Shown here: one piece after another, positions 9,321 to 16,001 of the stretch
How the letters are laid out: every line of letters begins with the position of its first letter
How positions within the stretch are numbered: position 1 is the first letter of the stretch
Assembly (NCBI RefSeq): GCF_008830185.1
Contig: NZ_WAGX01000005.1
Location: 558,001-622,000 of the forward strand
From: Candidatus Galacturonatibacter soehngenii
Lineage (GTDB): Bacteria > Bacillota > Clostridia > Lachnospirales > Lachnospiraceae
Reading direction: 5' to 3'
Length of the DNA: 64,000 bases
Notes under the pieces: model-generated
Told to the model about the DNA's origin: nothing
Database searches by the model: none
The model's input: only the letters and a program-made list of their open reading frames with translations
Program-made: the position numbers and the translations under genes

Positions 9321-10118
9321 TTACTTTCTGTTTGCATTAATCCATTCAATTGCATAATCTACGAGTTCCCTTTGATTCATACATTTTATATATGTATTAC
9401 CAATTTCAGTTGTTTTAACCCCAATTTGCTTTTCAAAGTTTTCTCCAATCTCTTCAAAGTCCTCTCCATCTACATATAAAGTATCATATGTAATCCACTC
9501 TCTTTTTCCTTCAATTATAACTGCACTGCTTTCCTTTACATCGTGCTTGGATGGGTAATTTGCTAATGCATCTGCTAAATGCAGTGAGGTATTCTTATCA
9601 TATCCCACTCCAATCAATAGCACTTTTGCATTTTGTAAATATAATTTATGAATAGGAGATTCTATACCAAAAATATTGCTGATGTCATGATCTTGAGTCA
9701 GATATTGAGCATGCTTACCTATAGCTGCCACCGAACGTGCTGGGTGATCACTTCGAAATACTCCAGGCCAACTTCGAAACATTTCGGCAACCGCACCCAT
9801 AGTGTTAGTTGGTGTAATATTTTTATCGTAAGCAGGCCAGTTTTCACGTATTGTCTGCCACCATTCTTTTGGTTCATTCCAATGAACGCCTGACTCAGGG
9901 TCTAAGTTCTTCCATGACTGGGTTGGCATCATTATCGTTCCATCGCTACCAACTGCCTCAATGAGAGCTTCTATTACTATTTGTGCCCCTCCACAGACAT
10001 AACCCATTTTACTTAAAGAGGTATGTACAATAACCGTATCTCCTTTAACAACTCCAACTTTTCTTATTGCGTTTATTATATCCTTTTTTAATACTAATTT
10101 TCGTTCAAATGATTCCAT
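9321..10118 (-). CDS. Aminoglycoside N(3)-acetyltransferase-like (AAC(3)/YokD family)
   Basis: 265-residue protein of the antibiotic N-acetyltransferase family, which transfers acetyl from acetyl-CoA to an amino group. Family motifs are clear: VKGDTVIVHTSLSKMGYV, the GGAQIVIEALIEAVG/GTIMMPTQSW block, FRSDHPARSVAAIG and a C-terminal VLLIGVGYDKNTSLHLAD. Base composition matches its neighbours and it sits in a chromosomal operon between a YciI protein and a Gfo/Idh dehydrogenase, so it is probably resident rather than an acquired resistance gene. Many relatives of this type (such as YokD) have little or no proven aminoglycoside activity; the natural substrate is unknown. Confidence 0.85.
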   Translation of the reverse strand: MESFERKLVLKKDIINAIRKVGVVKGDTVIVHTSLSKMGYVCGGAQIVIEALIEAVGSDGTIMMPTQSWKNLDPESGVHWNEPKEWWQTIRENWPAYDKNITPTNTMGAVAEMFRSWPGVFRSDHPARSVAAIGKHAQYLTQDHDISNIFGIESPIHKLYLQNAKVLLIGVGYDKNTSLHLADALANYPSKHDVKESSAVIIEGKREWITYDTLYVDGEDFEEIGENFEKQIGVKTTEIGNTYIKCMNQRELVDYAIEWINANRK

Positions 10119-10405: not shown

Positions 10406-10571
10406 ATTTATCCCCCCCGTATTTTGACCTGTAAAAATAGTAACATTAAAACTGTAACAAGACAAGATAGAAAACTCTTAACTTCTTAAAAATGAAGCTT
10501 ATAATCCCTTATAATGGAAATAAACACCAAAAAACAGAAAAAGTATGACAAATAAATGATTCAACATTAAA

Positions 10572-10603
10572 ACGCACTTAATAACAAAGGTTATTAAGTG
10601 CGT
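10572..10603 (-). terminator. Terminator of the fusion oxidoreductase/SDR operon
   Basis: Perfect 14-bp stem, 10572-10585 with 10590-10603, loop AAAG. On the minus strand it lies 44 bp after the SDR stop and is followed by TTTTAATG. Confidence 0.8.
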
Positions 10604-10646
10604 CAGATAAGCGACAACTAAAGTTATAAGGCGTCAACCATATATT

Positions 10647-11423
10647 TTATACAAGTGCTCCTCCGCCATCTACAATAATAAACTGACCTTGTACATAGCT
10701 TGATGCATCACTTGATAGATAAAGAACCGTTCCGTTTAGCTCTCCACGGTTACCAGGACGTCCAGCTGGATTCATCGTGTTATATTTTGTTAGGAATTCT
10801 TCTGATTTAAACAAAGTAGAGCTAGTCATTTCACTTTCAAATAGTGCTGGTCCTATTGCATTTACTGTGATACCATATCTAGCATAGGAGGCTGCCATAC
10901 CTCTTGTTAATCCAACTACAGCTGCTTTAGAGGAATTATAGGAATGTCTGATGAACATATCAAATTTATCCGCAATAATTGCATTTACAGACGCTATATT
11001 GATGACTTTTCCATATCCTCTTTCTTTCATTTGAGGAATTACATACTTACTTGCCAGAAAAATTCCCTTTACGTTCGTATCAAAAGATTTATCCCATTCC
11101 TCTACTGTCATGCTATCTACTCCACCGCGCACCGCTACGCCCGCATTATTCAGTAGGATATCAATATGTCCAAAGGCATTTAATACTGTATCGATTGCTG
11201 TCTTAACACTTTCTTCCTCTGTTACATCACAAACAACAGAAATTACCTTTCTACCAGTCTTTTCAATCTCACTCTTTACTGCATCTAGCTTTTCCACTCT
11301 TCTTGCAAGCAATGCCACATCCGCTCCTGCTTTTGCATAAGCAAGTGCCGCATCTGCTCCTAGTCCTGAGCTTGCTCCTGTTATTACTGCCACTTTACCT
11401 GTTAAATCAAAATAATTATCCAT
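10647..11423 (-). CDS. Short-chain dehydrogenase/reductase (SDR, classical type)
   Basis: 258-residue NAD(P)-dependent oxidoreductase. It shows the cofactor motif TGASSGLG, the structural NNAG, the catalytic Ser in INIASVN, and the catalytic Tyr-Lys pair in the YNSSK stretch, ending with the usual IIVDGGGALV. An AGAGAGGA ribosome site precedes the ATG. It lies 65 bp downstream of the old-yellow-enzyme/decarboxylase fusion gene, almost certainly in the same operon, so it probably oxidises or reduces the same carbon skeleton (a hydroxy- or ketoacid or its product). Substrate is not recognisable. Confidence 0.92.
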   Translation of the reverse strand: MDNYFDLTGKVAVITGASSGLGADAALAYAKAGADVALLARRVEKLDAVKSEIEKTGRKVISVVCDVTEEESVKTAIDTVLNAFGHIDILLNNAGVAVRGGVDSMTVEEWDKSFDTNVKGIFLASKYVIPQMKERGYGKVINIASVNAIIADKFDMFIRHSYNSSKAAVVGLTRGMAASYARYGITVNAIGPALFESEMTSSTLFKSEEFLTKYNTMNPAGRPGNRGELNGTVLYLSSDASSYVQGQFIIVDGGGALV

Positions 11424-11488: not shown

Positions 11489-14302
11489 CTAAATACGACC
11501 TGTTTCCATAAAGGCAGTACGGTCATAACGTCCAGTTAGTAAATACGGCATAATTTCATCTGTCTTTAAATTCTCAACTAAATTTAGTTTGTGTACAAGC
11601 AGACTGTTTTTAGAATAAGCACCACCTATTATTGTATGAATTGGAAGCTCTGCCCATGGATCATCGATACTGGATTTTAATTTCATGGTTACCGTTCCTG
11701 GCTCCCATGACTGATAATTATATTCACACTGATTCATCAGCAATGCTCCATTTTGAAAATGAGATACACCATTTTCATCTGGCATACGATCAAAATGAAA
11801 ATAAAATCCGCCTCCAAAGGTCTGTTTACCTGCTGCTGGAAATTGATACAATGCCGCTGTTAGAGGACTATTATATTCTCCTAATTTCATAGTGACATCT
11901 ACAAGTTGCGTTCCTCTTCTTGTAACCCCTGCTGTCACATAATCTTTCTCTCTTCGAATGACAAATTCTGCCCCTAACTTCTTTGGAATGCTTCCATTGT
12001 CTCGCCCACATTGAACTGCCATTTCTGCTCCTGCTCCACCAAGTACCAGTCCCATTGTATAAAGCCCAAGTGTATTTCCATAGGTTGCATAAACTCCTAG
12101 TATTGCTTCGTAATAATCATCAGCAAAGGTTGGGTTGTTTACATGACAGATAGACAATGTCACAACAGGCATGGAAAATGGTTTTAACGGTGGTGGAAGG
12201 ATTCTTTCTATGGCCAAAGGATCCGTAAGATAACTGATATATAATCCCTCTTGGTTATCCATCAAGGATACCTTTCCAAAATTTGCAATATCATCCTTAT
12301 CAAGTTTAAAGCTTGCTGTTTTTTCTACTTTTCTAAATAGCTCTCTTCCAACTTCATAACCAGTTCTTGTTGCTGGGGCTATCGTACCGTCTTTTACAGC
12401 ACTACCGATTACTTTTACATCCATTCCTTGCTCTTGTAACTGTGAAAGTAAGGATTGGTCTGGTTTAAATCCAAGAGAAAGTACAACTGCATCTGTGCAT
12501 ATTTCTACCTCTTCTTTGGTATTTAGGTTTTCTAATCGAACTATATGCTCCTTAATTTCTATAAGCGAATGATTCAATAAATACGTTGCCCCTAATTTAC
12601 TTAGACGGCCACAGACATCTAAGACATTCGTAGGGTTAGCATTTGGCGCAGGTTTATCAAGCATATCTATAATTGTAACTTGATTGTTTTTCTCTGCCAA
12701 ATATTGCGCTGTCTCAAGTCCTGTTAATCCAGCTCCAATCACTGCTATTTTTTTCTTTTCTAATTTTACATCACCTGATAATACAGCTTCAACGCTGTAA
12801 ACATGCTTCTCTTTTATTCCTGGTATCTTTTCTGGTATCACAGATGTTGAGCCAGTCGCAAGAATAACTGCATCTGGTTGATGTTTCATAATTAAATCAG
12901 GTGTAGCATCAGTATTTAATATAACCTCTACTCCCAGTGTCTCAAATTCGTTCTTATAATAATCTGCAATCCACTGCATACGTTCTTTTAATGGTGGTTG
13001 TTTTGCCAAATTAACGGTTCCACCAAGCTCACTTTTTCGATCTATCAAGGTTACTTTTACACCACGAAGAGCTAATGTTTGTGCGGCACACATACCTGCT
13101 GGTCCTGCGCCTACAATCACTACTTTATGTTGTTCTAAATCATATTCTAGATCTCCATACTTTTTCTCTCGTGCATACGTTGGATTAATCGCACATTCAG
13201 GTGGCATACCCGTCGCATTGTATTCACTTAGACTCTCAAAACAGCGAAGGCAAGAAATACATTTACGTAATTCTTTTTCTCTCCCCTCTTGTACCTTTTT
13301 CCCCCAGTTTGCATCCGCATTCCAGCTTCGTCCCATCGATACAAAATCAAGTACTCCTTGTTCTAAGAACTCTTGTGCAACGGCTGGATCTCGAAATACC
13401 GATACCCCAATTACTGGTATTTTCACATGACTTTTGATTGCAAGTAATAAATTCTTTCTCCACCCTTGTGGAAAAGAAATAGGCTCAACACAAGTCATTC
13501 CTGTCTCATATAAACCACAGCTTACATCAATAAAATCGATTCCTGCCTGTTCGAATGCAACAGCAATTTTAATTCCATCTTCTATACGAATGTAATCTTG
13601 TGTTACCCCTGTTTTATCCAAGAATTCCTCCACACTTAAGCGAACACCTATTGGAAAATCAGGACCACAGGCCTTTCGAATCCCCTCAATTATCTCCATA
13701 ACAATTCTAAGACGATTTTCAAAGCTTCCGCCATATTCGTCCTCTCTTTTGTTGGTATAGGGGGATAAAAACTGCTGCAAAAGATATCCATGGGCTGCAT
13801 GTAGTTCTACACCATCACCTCCTGCTTTTTGTACTCTAACCGCTCCATTGATAAATTGCTGAATTAATTCCTTAATCTCTTCTATTGTAAGTGCTCTTGT
13901 TTCTTGCTTTGCCTTTTTGCAAGGAATCGCAGAAGGAGCAACAACTGGTTGCCCACCAAGTAGTGCTGAAACCGTTTCACGTCCTGGATGATGCAATTGT
14001 ATCAAAAGCTTACTTCCATGCTTATGCACTGCCATAGCAAGTTTAGAGAGTGGTTCAATGTGTTTATCCTTTGTAACAGATAGCTGTCTTAAAAGCCCAG
14101 CCCCATGAACATCATTTACCCGAGTAATTTCTGGTATAATAATTCCAGCTCCACCAATGGCTCTTTTTTCATAAAAAGTAATCATGTCCTCTGATGGTGT
14201 TCCATCTAAATTAGCAAGCCCACACCCCATTGGTGACATAACCAGTCGGTTTTTTGTAGTCATTTTACCAATACTTCCTGCTTCAAAAATTTTATTATAC
14301 AT
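11489..14302 (-). CDS. Fusion of a 2,4-dienoyl-CoA-reductase-type flavoenzyme with an acetoacetate-decarboxylase domain
   Basis: 937 residues. Residues 1-340 are an old-yellow-enzyme FMN barrel (HAAHGYLLQQFLSPYTNKR). C348, C351, C354 and C370 are the likely 4Fe-4S ligands. Residues 393-655 form a FAD/NAD domain with GAGPAG (398-403) and GAGLTG (523-528). This is the layout of 2,4-dienoyl-CoA reductase and related enoate reductases, which normally end near residue 650-670. The extra C-terminal part (about 685-937) reads as an acetoacetate decarboxylase domain: YLTDPLAIERILPPPLKP, and IPKKLGAEF with the Schiff-base-type lysine pair K774/K775. Reduction followed by decarboxylation of a beta-keto acid is a plausible joint role but is inferred. 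It shares an operon with the SDR and is divergent from a PucR regulator. Confidence 0.88.
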   Translation of the reverse strand: MYNKIFEAGSIGKMTTKNRLVMSPMGCGLANLDGTPSEDMITFYEKRAIGGAGIIIPEITRVNDVHGAGLLRQLSVTKDKHIEPLSKLAMAVHKHGSKLLIQLHHPGRETVSALLGGQPVVAPSAIPCKKAKQETRALTIEEIKELIQQFINGAVRVQKAGGDGVELHAAHGYLLQQFLSPYTNKREDEYGGSFENRLRIVMEIIEGIRKACGPDFPIGVRLSVEEFLDKTGVTQDYIRIEDGIKIAVAFEQAGIDFIDVSCGLYETGMTCVEPISFPQGWRKNLLLAIKSHVKIPVIGVSVFRDPAVAQEFLEQGVLDFVSMGRSWNADANWGKKVQEGREKELRKCISCLRCFESLSEYNATGMPPECAINPTYAREKKYGDLEYDLEQHKVVIVGAGPAGMCAAQTLALRGVKVTLIDRKSELGGTVNLAKQPPLKERMQWIADYYKNEFETLGVEVILNTDATPDLIMKHQPDAVILATGSTSVIPEKIPGIKEKHVYSVEAVLSGDVKLEKKKIAVIGAGLTGLETAQYLAEKNNQVTIIDMLDKPAPNANPTNVLDVCGRLSKLGATYLLNHSLIEIKEHIVRLENLNTKEEVEICTDAVVLSLGFKPDQSLLSQLQEQGMDVKVIGSAVKDGTIAPATRTGYEVGRELFRKVEKTASFKLDKDDIANFGKVSLMDNQEGLYISYLTDPLAIERILPPPLKPFSMPVVTLSICHVNNPTFADDYYEAILGVYATYGNTLGLYTMGLVLGGAGAEMAVQCGRDNGSIPKKLGAEFVIRREKDYVTAGVTRRGTQLVDVTMKLGEYNSPLTAALYQFPAAGKQTFGGGFYFHFDRMPDENGVSHFQNGALLMNQCEYNYQSWEPGTVTMKLKSSIDDPWAELPIHTIIGGAYSKNSLLVHKLNLVENLKTDEIMPYLLTGRYDRTAFMETGRI

Positions 14303-14337: not shown

Positions 14338-14366
14338 AGAATACGTGATAGCCCTTATATTTACAA
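14338..14366 (-). promoter_or_regulatory. Probable promoter of the fusion oxidoreductase operon
   Basis: On the minus strand TTGTAA (14361-14366), 17-bp spacer, TATTCT (14338-14343), 35 bp before the start codon at 14302. It overlaps the start of the duplicated element that also contains the divergent PucR promoter, so one regulator could govern both directions. Confidence 0.5.
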
Positions 14367-14427
14367 CGTGCACCATATATGATAAAAAATTGACAATTTG
14401 TTTATGATGCACTATAGTAAAAGTAAT
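14359..14427. repeat. Duplicated intergenic promoter element, copy 1
   Basis: About 70 bp resembling 17682-17749 over its length: shared blocks are TTTACAACGT, ACCATA, GACA, ATGCAC and ATAGTAAAA in the same order and spacing (one base different). It contains an inverted repeat GTGCACCATA (14368-14377) / TATGATGCAC (14403-14412) around a TTGACA box. Probably a shared regulator site. Confidence 0.65.
14390..14418 (+). promoter_or_regulatory. Sigma-A promoter of the PucR regulator gene
   Basis: TTGACA (14390-14395), exactly 17 bp, TATAGT (14413-14418), 53 bp before the ATG at 14472. The arms of the inverted repeat in the duplicated element flank and touch this promoter, fitting autoregulation. 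Confidence 0.8.
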
Positions 14428-14471
14428 AAAACAACTAAATATTTTGTACATAATTGATAAAGGGGAAAACT

Positions 14472-16001
14472 ATGACATTTACACATTTAGTACAGAAATT
14501 AGCAGAGGAATATGAAATTATACATCTTAGCACAGGGGAGGACCTAGAGATACAAGATATTGCATTTCTAGATAATAAACATGATAACACTTTAAAAAAT
14601 ACGCTATACTTTGGTTATGACAGACAATTCAATAACCTTCTTACTCCTCCCTCTCACTGTATCCTTGCCAAGACCAGCTGCATTCCTAAATTAGAATCTG
14701 AATGTAATGTGATTTTAATTGAAGAAGATTATTTATTTGCTATCTTTAATGATGCTAAGACCTTAATTGATACGACTAGTAATAAAGGTATCTTTGAAGA
14801 ATTAACTGATCTTGCTGATAAAACTCACAGCATAGAAACTGTGATTGATGCTGCTTCGATTAGACTTGGATGCTCCTTACTTTTTTGTGACATGAACTTT
14901 AAAATTATCGCGAGTTCCTCCACCATACCAGTAAAAGATCCTCTCTGGAGTGAGAATACCTTGCAAGGATATTGTTCCTATGATTTCATAAGTGGTGTAC
15001 GAGAACTAAAAGCTGTTCAAAATGCTTCTTCTACCACCGCTGCTATTGAAGTAACTTGCCCACAATCTCCTTACCGCAAATTAACTAGTAAGGTCTTTCA
15101 TAACCAGACTCAAATTGGTTTTTTATTAATGATAGAAGGAGATAATTTAATTCTCCCTTCTCATTTTGATCTTTTAAGCACCATTAGTCATGTCATTAGC
15201 TACACGATTGCGTACTATACCCCTGATTTACTGGAAGGTAATAGTCTATATCACGAATTACTTTACGATATGTTAATTGGTGCTCCTTCCAAAGAAATTC
15301 TACCAAGAATTTCAAAGCTTTATTTTCCTGCAAAAATGAAAGTACTGTTTATTCGACCTACCAGATATATGGGTTCCCAATTTTTAAACAATCTTACCTA
15401 TAAGAAGCTAAAAACTCTGATTCCAGGTACCCATACTACGTATCACAAAAAGGGAATTGTGGCAGTAATTCCACTTAAGGAAGTAGTCGATTTTGGGGTT
15501 GAATTACATGAATTGCTAAAGCGATTATGTCTGGAGGAGCATATCAGAATTGGAATCAGTAATTCCTTTTCTTCCATTGAAAACTTTGTTACTTACTATG
15601 AGCAAGCGCATACTGCCTATGAATTAGGCCAGAAATTAAAGACAGAAGAGCTCCTTTATCACTACCAAGATTATCAAATATTTAAATTATTTTCAGAGAC
15701 AAAACATCCGGATCAATTAGGTCGATTTTGCCATCCTGCATTGACAACGCTTCGTTTGTATGATCATAAGAATAGTTCACAGCTATATAAAACCTTATGT
15801 GTTTATATTGATAAAGGCTGCAATATCAAGTTGACTTCGGAAAGTTTATACATTCATCGGAATTCTCTCGTTTATCGCTTAAATCGAATTGTTGAATTAT
15901 GCGAAATCGATTTTACAGATGTAAACACTGTTTTCCTACTCAGACTTTCTTTTTTAATTGACCGATACAACGAACTAAATACCGATACTGAGTGGAAGTA
16001 A
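14472..16001 (+). CDS. PucR/CdaR-family transcription regulator
   Basis: 509 residues from ATG 14472, with AGGGG at 14461-14465; a TTG 18 bp earlier is in frame but has no ribosome site. The N-terminal half is a sensing region (LSTGEDLEIQDIAFLDNKHD typical of PucR proteins), the middle resembles the GGDEF-like CdaR regulatory segment, and the C-terminal end is the PucR helix-turn-helix (LTSESLYIHRNSLVYRLNRI). These proteins activate catabolic operons in response to the pathway substrate. The divergent arrangement points to the fusion oxidoreductase/SDR operon as its main target. Confidence 0.88.
   Translation: MTFTHLVQKLAEEYEIIHLSTGEDLEIQDIAFLDNKHDNTLKNTLYFGYDRQFNNLLTPPSHCILAKTSCIPKLESECNVILIEEDYLFAIFNDAKTLIDTTSNKGIFEELTDLADKTHSIETVIDAASIRLGCSLLFCDMNFKIIASSSTIPVKDPLWSENTLQGYCSYDFISGVRELKAVQNASSTTAAIEVTCPQSPYRKLTSKVFHNQTQIGFLLMIEGDNLILPSHFDLLSTISHVISYTIAYYTPDLLEGNSLYHELLYDMLIGAPSKEILPRISKLYFPAKMKVLFIRPTRYMGSQFLNNLTYKKLKTLIPGTHTTYHKKGIVAVIPLKEVVDFGVELHELLKRLCLEEHIRIGISNSFSSIENFVTYYEQAHTAYELGQKLKTEELLYHYQDYQIFKLFSETKHPDQLGRFCHPALTTLRLYDHKNSSQLYKTLCVYIDKGCNIKLTSESLYIHRNSLVYRLNRIVELCEIDFTDVNTVFLLRLSFLIDRYNELNTDTEWK

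Follow-up and report, generated by a model that had tools for sequence, protein, structure and literature searches.

What does a single polypeptide do that joins a flavin ene-reductase to a domain of the acetoacetate decarboxylase (ADC) superfamily? The question is raised by one gene in a 64,000-nucleotide stretch of the genome of Candidatus Galacturonatibacter soehngenii (contig NZ_WAGX01000005.1, positions 558,001 to 622,000), hereinafter designated the window. The gene is one unbroken frame on the minus strand, from an ATG at 14302 to a stop at 11489. As an earlier note on the window had proposed, its predicted product is a reductase fused to an ADC domain; the reductase is an ene-reductase of the Old Yellow Enzyme (OYE) class. 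We find that an apparently intact OYE half and a predicted ADC-fold half, with a lysine pair and the glutamate E76 of the ADC pocket, are conserved as one fusion over Bacillota and Actinomycetota. The gene and its parts are as follows.

11489..14302, minus strand: fused gene, a single open frame of 937 aa, OYE ene-reductase with BaiCD-like architecture plus ADC-superfamily domain
13271..14293, minus strand: FMN barrel, Oxidored_FMN, residues 4-344 (Pfam, 241.4 bits)
13193..13261, minus strand: 4Fe-4S cysteines C348, C351, C354 and C370, invariant in 71/71 fusions
12416..13126, minus strand: FAD/NAD(P)H domain, Pyr_redox_2, residues 393-629 (Pfam, 111.4 bits)
11573..12262, minus strand: ADC-superfamily domain, PF06314, residues 681-910 (Pfam and fold)
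11978..11983, minus strand: codons of K774 and K775, opposite K115 and K116 of Clostridium acetobutylicum ADC (alignment to 3bh2)

A domain search of the C-terminal part returns PF06314 at 154.6 bits (E 4e-45), against a Pfam cut-off of 29.8. The sole Oxidored_FMN match and the sole ADC match of the source genome both lie in this fusion. For comparison within the family, 71 complete fusions were used, namely the window and 70 relatives. Over the relatives, the barrel averages 71.0% identity to the window, the ADC part 67.8%, the Fe-S and FAD part 58.4% and the linker 51.5%. Because the ADC part is conserved nearly as well as the barrel, it is not drifting and looks like a working part. An M-Y start is found at the aligned position in 68 of the 70 relatives, the exceptions being L135, at a contig end, and L157.

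The same fusion was then sought in other genomes. In a sample of the window's family, an ADC-family match is present in 22 of 397 genomes and lies inside a long fused frame in 10, the window's genome included. In a sample of the phylum, an ADC match is present in 14 of 398 genomes, above the cut-off in 12, and only that of the window's genome is fused. Gene neighbourhoods were inspected for the other nine fused genomes of the family and for one genome of the window's genus (G001). A scan of one genome per species, with patterns taken from the ADC domains of 11 fusions, returned 77 loci, of which many come from metagenome assemblies and a few share an assembly; because the scan patterns derive from fusions, an unfused gene carrying another type of ADC would escape. 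The complete fusion is present as one open frame in 70 of the 77 loci (tblastn). Two others are fused but truncated where the contig ends, two stop within the ADC part and are uninformative, and three are broken: in L109 the greater part of the reductase is missing, L163 has a break near the linker, and L167 has an internal deletion. The hosts in Bacillota include Anaerocolumna, Lachnotalea, Lacrimispora, Hespellia, Robinsoniella, Murimonas, Clostridium cadaveris, Ruminiclostridium cellobioparum, Acetobacterium and Mogibacterium, and those in Actinomycetota include Olsenella and Tractidigestivibacter. The carriers live in animal guts, in rumens and in other anoxic habitats. None of 2447 matching plasmid records covers 80% of the fusion. 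A literature search, with most subscription papers outside its reach, found no description of an OYE-ADC fusion.

The tree of reductase halves places the fusions together. It comprises 53 sequences (24 of the 71 fusions, three from split loci, in which OYE and ADC are separate adjacent genes, and 26 others) and was calculated by a quick method without bootstrap, with a midpoint root that serves for drawing only. The 24 fused reductases form one side of a single branch (SH-aLRT 100). A wider branch of 31 rows (SH-aLRT 99) contains these fusions, the three split-locus reductases and four reductases without an ADC neighbour. An OYE-type reductase lies within ~1.5 kb in 3 of the 29 unfused ADC places of the family and phylum samples.

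The reductase half has all the features of a long-form OYE. Specifically, its FMN barrel carries the motif H168-x2-H171-x-Y173, which we take to mark the Old Yellow Enzyme class, and is followed by four cysteines and a pyridine nucleotide domain. The three motif residues, the four cysteines and Y265 are invariant in 71/71 fusions. The cysteines are spaced C348-x2-C351-x2-C354-x15-C370. The earlier note had read the first two intervals correctly and had called them unusual, and this second part does not stand: the x2-x2 spacing is found in 24/24 fused, 3/3 split-operon and 10/26 other long reductases, as well as in the solved structure 6l6j, while 14 of those 26 have x2-x3 and two are not resolved by the pattern. 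Since the spacing is common among long reductases and present in 6l6j, it is ruled out as a peculiarity of the fusion.

The best solved relatives of the reductase half are 2,4-dienoyl-CoA reductase (1ps9) and 2-naphthoyl-CoA reductase (6qkg), and the latter enzyme is the nearest solved chain. The description "dienoyl-CoA-reductase-type" holds for the architecture and fails for the active site: 1ps9 carries Met and Glu in place of the two motif histidines and aligns a His with Y265, whereas the fusion has the H-x2-H-x-Y barrel and an invariant Tyr. These residues rule out a 2,4-dienoyl-CoA reductase proper. Three NCBIfam models are aligned over their full length, each with a score far under its family cut-off: BaiCD (NF041087, 452 versus 825 bits), mycofactocin OYE 2 (444 versus 793 bits) and long bilirubin reductase (NF045599, 403.6 versus 750 bits). 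These three names were accordingly rejected as identities. BaiCD, the best of the three matches, and the gut 5-beta-reductases have the same three-part reductase, corresponding to residues 2-654 of the fusion. In one published study, C-terminal fusions to a 3-beta-hydroxysteroid dehydrogenase (3-beta-HSDH)/isomerase are reported for 61 of 257 gut 5-beta-reductase homologues, with activity shown for two (PMC12238238). The OYE-ADC fusion is of the same general kind as the fusions described there, with another partner: their C-terminal part is a Rossmann 3-beta-HSDH, whereas that of the window's protein has the ADC fold, and the regulator families listed there are AraC, AcrR and MerR, whereas the window's regulator is PucR-type.

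The ADC half was modelled with AlphaFold from 34 sequences (pLDDT 92, pTM 0.89), and Foldseek matches the model to the ADC fold with E 7e-17. When Foldseek's matches are rescored with VIA-align, the solved ADCs 3bh2 (Z 25.1), 3bgt (24.8) and 3c8w (24.6) are on top. Swit_4259, the S. bingchenggensis aldolase-dehydratase, MppR and a Methanoculleus protein titled ADC follow at Z 22.6 to 21.6, and then there is a gap to 7.8. The C-terminal part is thus predicted to have the ADC fold, and it keeps the lysine pair K774/K775, within GSIPKKL, in 71/71 complete fusions; on both points the earlier note is borne out. The nearest match, ADC 3bh2 (EC 4.1.1.4), aligns over 232 residues with a root-mean-square deviation of 2.9 and 16% identity, and shares the lysine pair, E76 and R108. 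The S. bingchenggensis aldolase-dehydratase (4zbt, 6eej; presumably Sbi00515), MppR (4jmd) and Swit_4259 (5upb) have the same fold (Z 21.8 to 22.6) and 11-16% identity to the ADC half, and are not fused to a reductase. The title of 6eej (Z 22.6) reads "aldolase-dehydratase in covalent complex with dienone product". The fusion has the fold and the Schiff-base lysine of this branch (Sbi00515, MppR), which do not discriminate it from true ADCs. MppR is described as an aldolase which catalyses the condensation of pyruvate and an aldehyde (PMC7820114) and as an aldolase or cyclase working via a lysine (PMC7820114, PMC10367076). The full-length model has a lower confidence (pLDDT 80.7, pTM 0.71), with pLDDT <50 in the Fe-S region 351-366, the linker 660-677, residues 768-771 and three other stretches, and so does not fix the mutual arrangement of the two halves.

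The pocket residues distinguish the fusion from canonical ADCs. Counting along chain 3bh2 in the alignment, R29 corresponds to Q684, E61 to S717, E76 to E732, and K115/K116 to K774/K775. These five positions are Q, S, E, K and K in 71/71 fusions, and R, E, E, K and K in 9/9 canonical ADCs, taken as the stand-alone loci with the best Pfam scores in the family and phylum samples. The equivalent of R108 is also kept in 71/71 fusions. R29 and E61 of C. acetobutylicum ADC are, we assume, required for decarboxylation, and E76, K115 and K116 are likewise assumed to have roles in that enzyme. With Gln and Ser in place of this pair, the proposal of the earlier note that the enzyme decarboxylates a keto acid is doubtful, and the change presumably fits those enzymes of the superfamily that decarboxylate no longer. 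Judged from the alignments, the Schiff-base apparatus is retained and two polar pocket positions are altered in a fixed way. The ADC domains of split loci also keep E, K and K, with A and F (L045, L067) or E and Y (L055) at the first two positions.

The fused gene is the first of two genes in an operon, with a regulator gene on the other side. The features around it are as follows.

10647..11423, minus strand: SDR-family dehydrogenase, 258 aa, second gene of the operon, 65 bases downstream of the fusion
14454..16001, plus strand: PucR-type regulator, 515 aa, divergent, separated by a gap of 151 bases (HTH_30, 65 bits)
14364..14416, no strand assigned: conserved intergenic block, likely an operator region (alignment of upstream regions)
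14390-14418, plus strand: promoter-like site toward the regulator, TTGACA-17-TATAGT, 11/12, overlapping the conserved block
10571..10604, minus strand: terminator-like hairpin after the SDR gene, 15 pairs with a T-run, the probable end of the two-gene operon (terminator scan)

Both neighbours are as the earlier note had named them, and the idea of one compact route is likewise supported. The regulator also has a GGDEF_2 match of 22.7 bits, slightly under the Pfam cut-off of 24.5. A divergent PucR homologue is found in 57 of the 77 loci and a same-strand dehydrogenase within 400 bp in 54 (tblastn): 48 loci have both, nine have PucR only, six have the dehydrogenase only, and 14 have neither. The dehydrogenase belongs to several SDR subfamilies, encoded downstream or upstream, and may be a tandem double SDR or, in L122, a zinc alcohol dehydrogenase. 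The double SDRs (~600 aa, head-to-tail) are found at L142:6990-8780, L165:6710-8704 and other loci. The partner is thus exchanged in type and kept in position, which suggests that a carbonyl/alcohol step is needed. Beyond PucR and the dehydrogenases there is no general neighbour across the 77 loci that would serve as a clue to the substrate; the largest other cluster occurs in 8 of 77, and no conserved transporter cluster stands out. The neighbour lists keep the longest frame, and antisense frames hid some genes (e.g. L112, L126, L127).

The conserved block spans ~50 bases and is common to 12 aligned upstream regions, which were picked from close relatives among the 77 loci. It matches once within the window. 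In each of seven genomes searched (<=3 mismatches; control zero), it has a single site, that of the operon itself; because the pattern was built from these loci, only the lack of further sites is informative. The promoter scan gave 23 sites in the window versus 15.7 expected, and the terminator scan gave four versus 2.6 expected, the other three with 5 to 8 pairs.

Split operons contain the same genes, in whole or in part. Two of them, L179 (genome G457, family f56 of the same phylum) and L088 (genome G173, the window's family), have PucR and then OYE, ADC and SDR genes in the same order as the fused operon. Four further f56 genomes (L180-L183; 148 searched) have PucR with ADC and SDR and no adjoining reductase. 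The SDRs of these five f56 loci, which lie beside unfused ADC genes, are 53-55% identical to the SDR of the window. These enzymes and their regulator thus tend to be inherited as a group whether or not they are fused, and their activities belong together.

Our preferred reading, held tentatively and at slightly less than an even chance, is that the fusion is the bifunctional enzyme of a dedicated module of PucR regulator, fusion and dehydrogenase, in which the ADC half is of the Schiff-base aldolase or dehydratase type and shares an enone with the ene-reductase. The ADC half would bind a ketone or 2-oxo acid through K774. Its Schiff-base chemistry would differ from the decarboxylation of acetoacetate and would most likely be aldol condensation or cleavage, or dehydration or hydration, as known for the aldolase-dehydratases of the superfamily. 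An alpha,beta-unsaturated carbonyl that it makes or consumes would be reduced at the C=C bond by the FMN barrel, supplied with electrons by NAD(P)H via FAD and the Fe-S cluster. The neighbouring dehydrogenase would interconvert carbonyl and alcohol, and PucR would sense the substrate and control this operon alone. We favour this mechanism because a conjugated enone, such as the dienone product in the title of 6eej, is what Old Yellow Enzymes reduce. The cascade in its complete form, in which a lysine Schiff base makes or breaks a C-C bond or eliminates water, the flavin domain on the same chain reduces the enone, and a third enzyme reduces the carbonyl, is on the unlikely side.

Several observations weigh against the preferred reading. 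Most other low-scoring ADC-family genes that were aligned also lack R29 and E61, and because many non-canonical genes share this loss, it singles out no one reaction. By fold, the ADC half resembles true decarboxylases (Z 24.6-25.1) somewhat more than it does the aldolase-dehydratase (Z 22.2-22.6), and PDB sequence searches with it yield only true ADCs above noise. Residues 768-771, which have low confidence in the full-length model, are beside the lysines. In the tree, the four reductases of the wider branch have no adjacent ADC gene. The split locus L090 (G143) has ADC followed by OYE, with no PucR or SDR homologue nearby. The 14 loci with neither partner include all six of Olsenella type and the short contigs L145, L167 and L170, and also L129, L136, L137 and L139, which lack both partners despite several kilobases on both sides.

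In line with the earlier note, the ADC half may instead be a beta-keto acid decarboxylase, with a pocket reshaped for a substrate other than acetoacetate, acting before or after C=C reduction on a keto acid that the SDR makes from a hydroxy acid. True ADCs are nearest in both fold and sequence, the equivalents of K115, K116, E76 and R108 are kept in every fusion, and a dehydrogenase adjoining a decarboxylase is a sensible pair. However, every one of the 71 fusions has Gln and Ser where all nine canonical ADCs have R29 and E61, and the split-operon ADC domains are without them as well. We regard this explanation as a serious possibility, although on balance improbable. Alternatively, the module may reduce a steroid-like or lipophilic enone, as BaiCD and the 5-beta-reductases do, with the ADC half merely binding or positioning the substrate. 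This would agree with BaiCD being the top NCBIfam match of the reductase half, with the C-terminal 3-beta-HSDH/isomerase fusions described in the 5-beta-reductase study (PMC12238238), and with an OYE-3Beta_HSD fusion just upstream of the fusion locus in L125. That neighbour (L125:339-3803, plus strand, 1154 aa, with a C-terminal Epimerase/3Beta_HSD region) reaches 1090 bits and passes the BaiCD cut-off of 825, whereas the window's fusion is far under it. Moreover, only one of the 77 loci shows this adjacency, the two genes are separated there by a hairpin with a T-run, and an idle domain would not need an invariant lysine pair and pocket Glu. An enone reductase with a passive ADC half is therefore quite improbable.

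There is a negligible chance that the fusion is without functional meaning, having arisen by local accident or faulty assembly. Three of the 77 loci are indeed broken or partly deleted (L109, L163, L167), but complete fusions come from many assemblies, form one tree branch, and have a promoter block common to 12 upstream regions. The 70 complete frames among 77 loci refute chance or misassembly as an explanation.

Other genes near the fusions were noted. In Olsenella profusa, a second OYE gene directly follows the fusion (L157:6949-8475); its frame ends early (508 aa) and may be broken. A second, divergent reductase copy, perhaps a whole fusion, lies nearby in L130, L142 and L146 and is cut by the locus end. 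On the same side, L140, L144, L149, L152, L155 and L158 have a homologue of 3-hydroxyacyl-CoA dehydrogenase, and that of L140 passes the NF006143 cut-off. Upstream of the fusion, Olsenella-type loci have a 3-hydroxyacyl-CoA dehydrogenase (L161:1548-2573), or a GCV_T-like gene and an MFS transporter (L159:3-2191). Near the operon in the window, an Antibiotic_NAT gene (aminoglycoside 3-N-acetyltransferase family; 9321-10118, minus strand) scores 203.5 bits versus the NCBIfam AAC(3) cut-off of 270, and hence no resistance is called. In three haloarchaeal plasmid stretches (L184, L185, L186), distant ADC-family genes lie among mostly acyl-CoA and hydantoinase/oxoprolinase-type genes, another setting for ADC-like enzymes; a gene of L184 is annotated as acetone carboxylase gamma subunit. 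The annotation of these three stretches includes no OYE, although two of them hold an LLM-class flavin oxidoreductase.

The two halves come from known superfamilies, and their pairing defines a widespread family of bifunctional enzymes whose functions are predicted only. Fusion, split operons and exchange of the dehydrogenase all suggest a chemical sequence. A regulator of a single operon offers a route to the inducer. If the preferred reading is true, a natural catalyst that combines Schiff-base chemistry and ene-reduction on one chain would be useful for biocatalysis.

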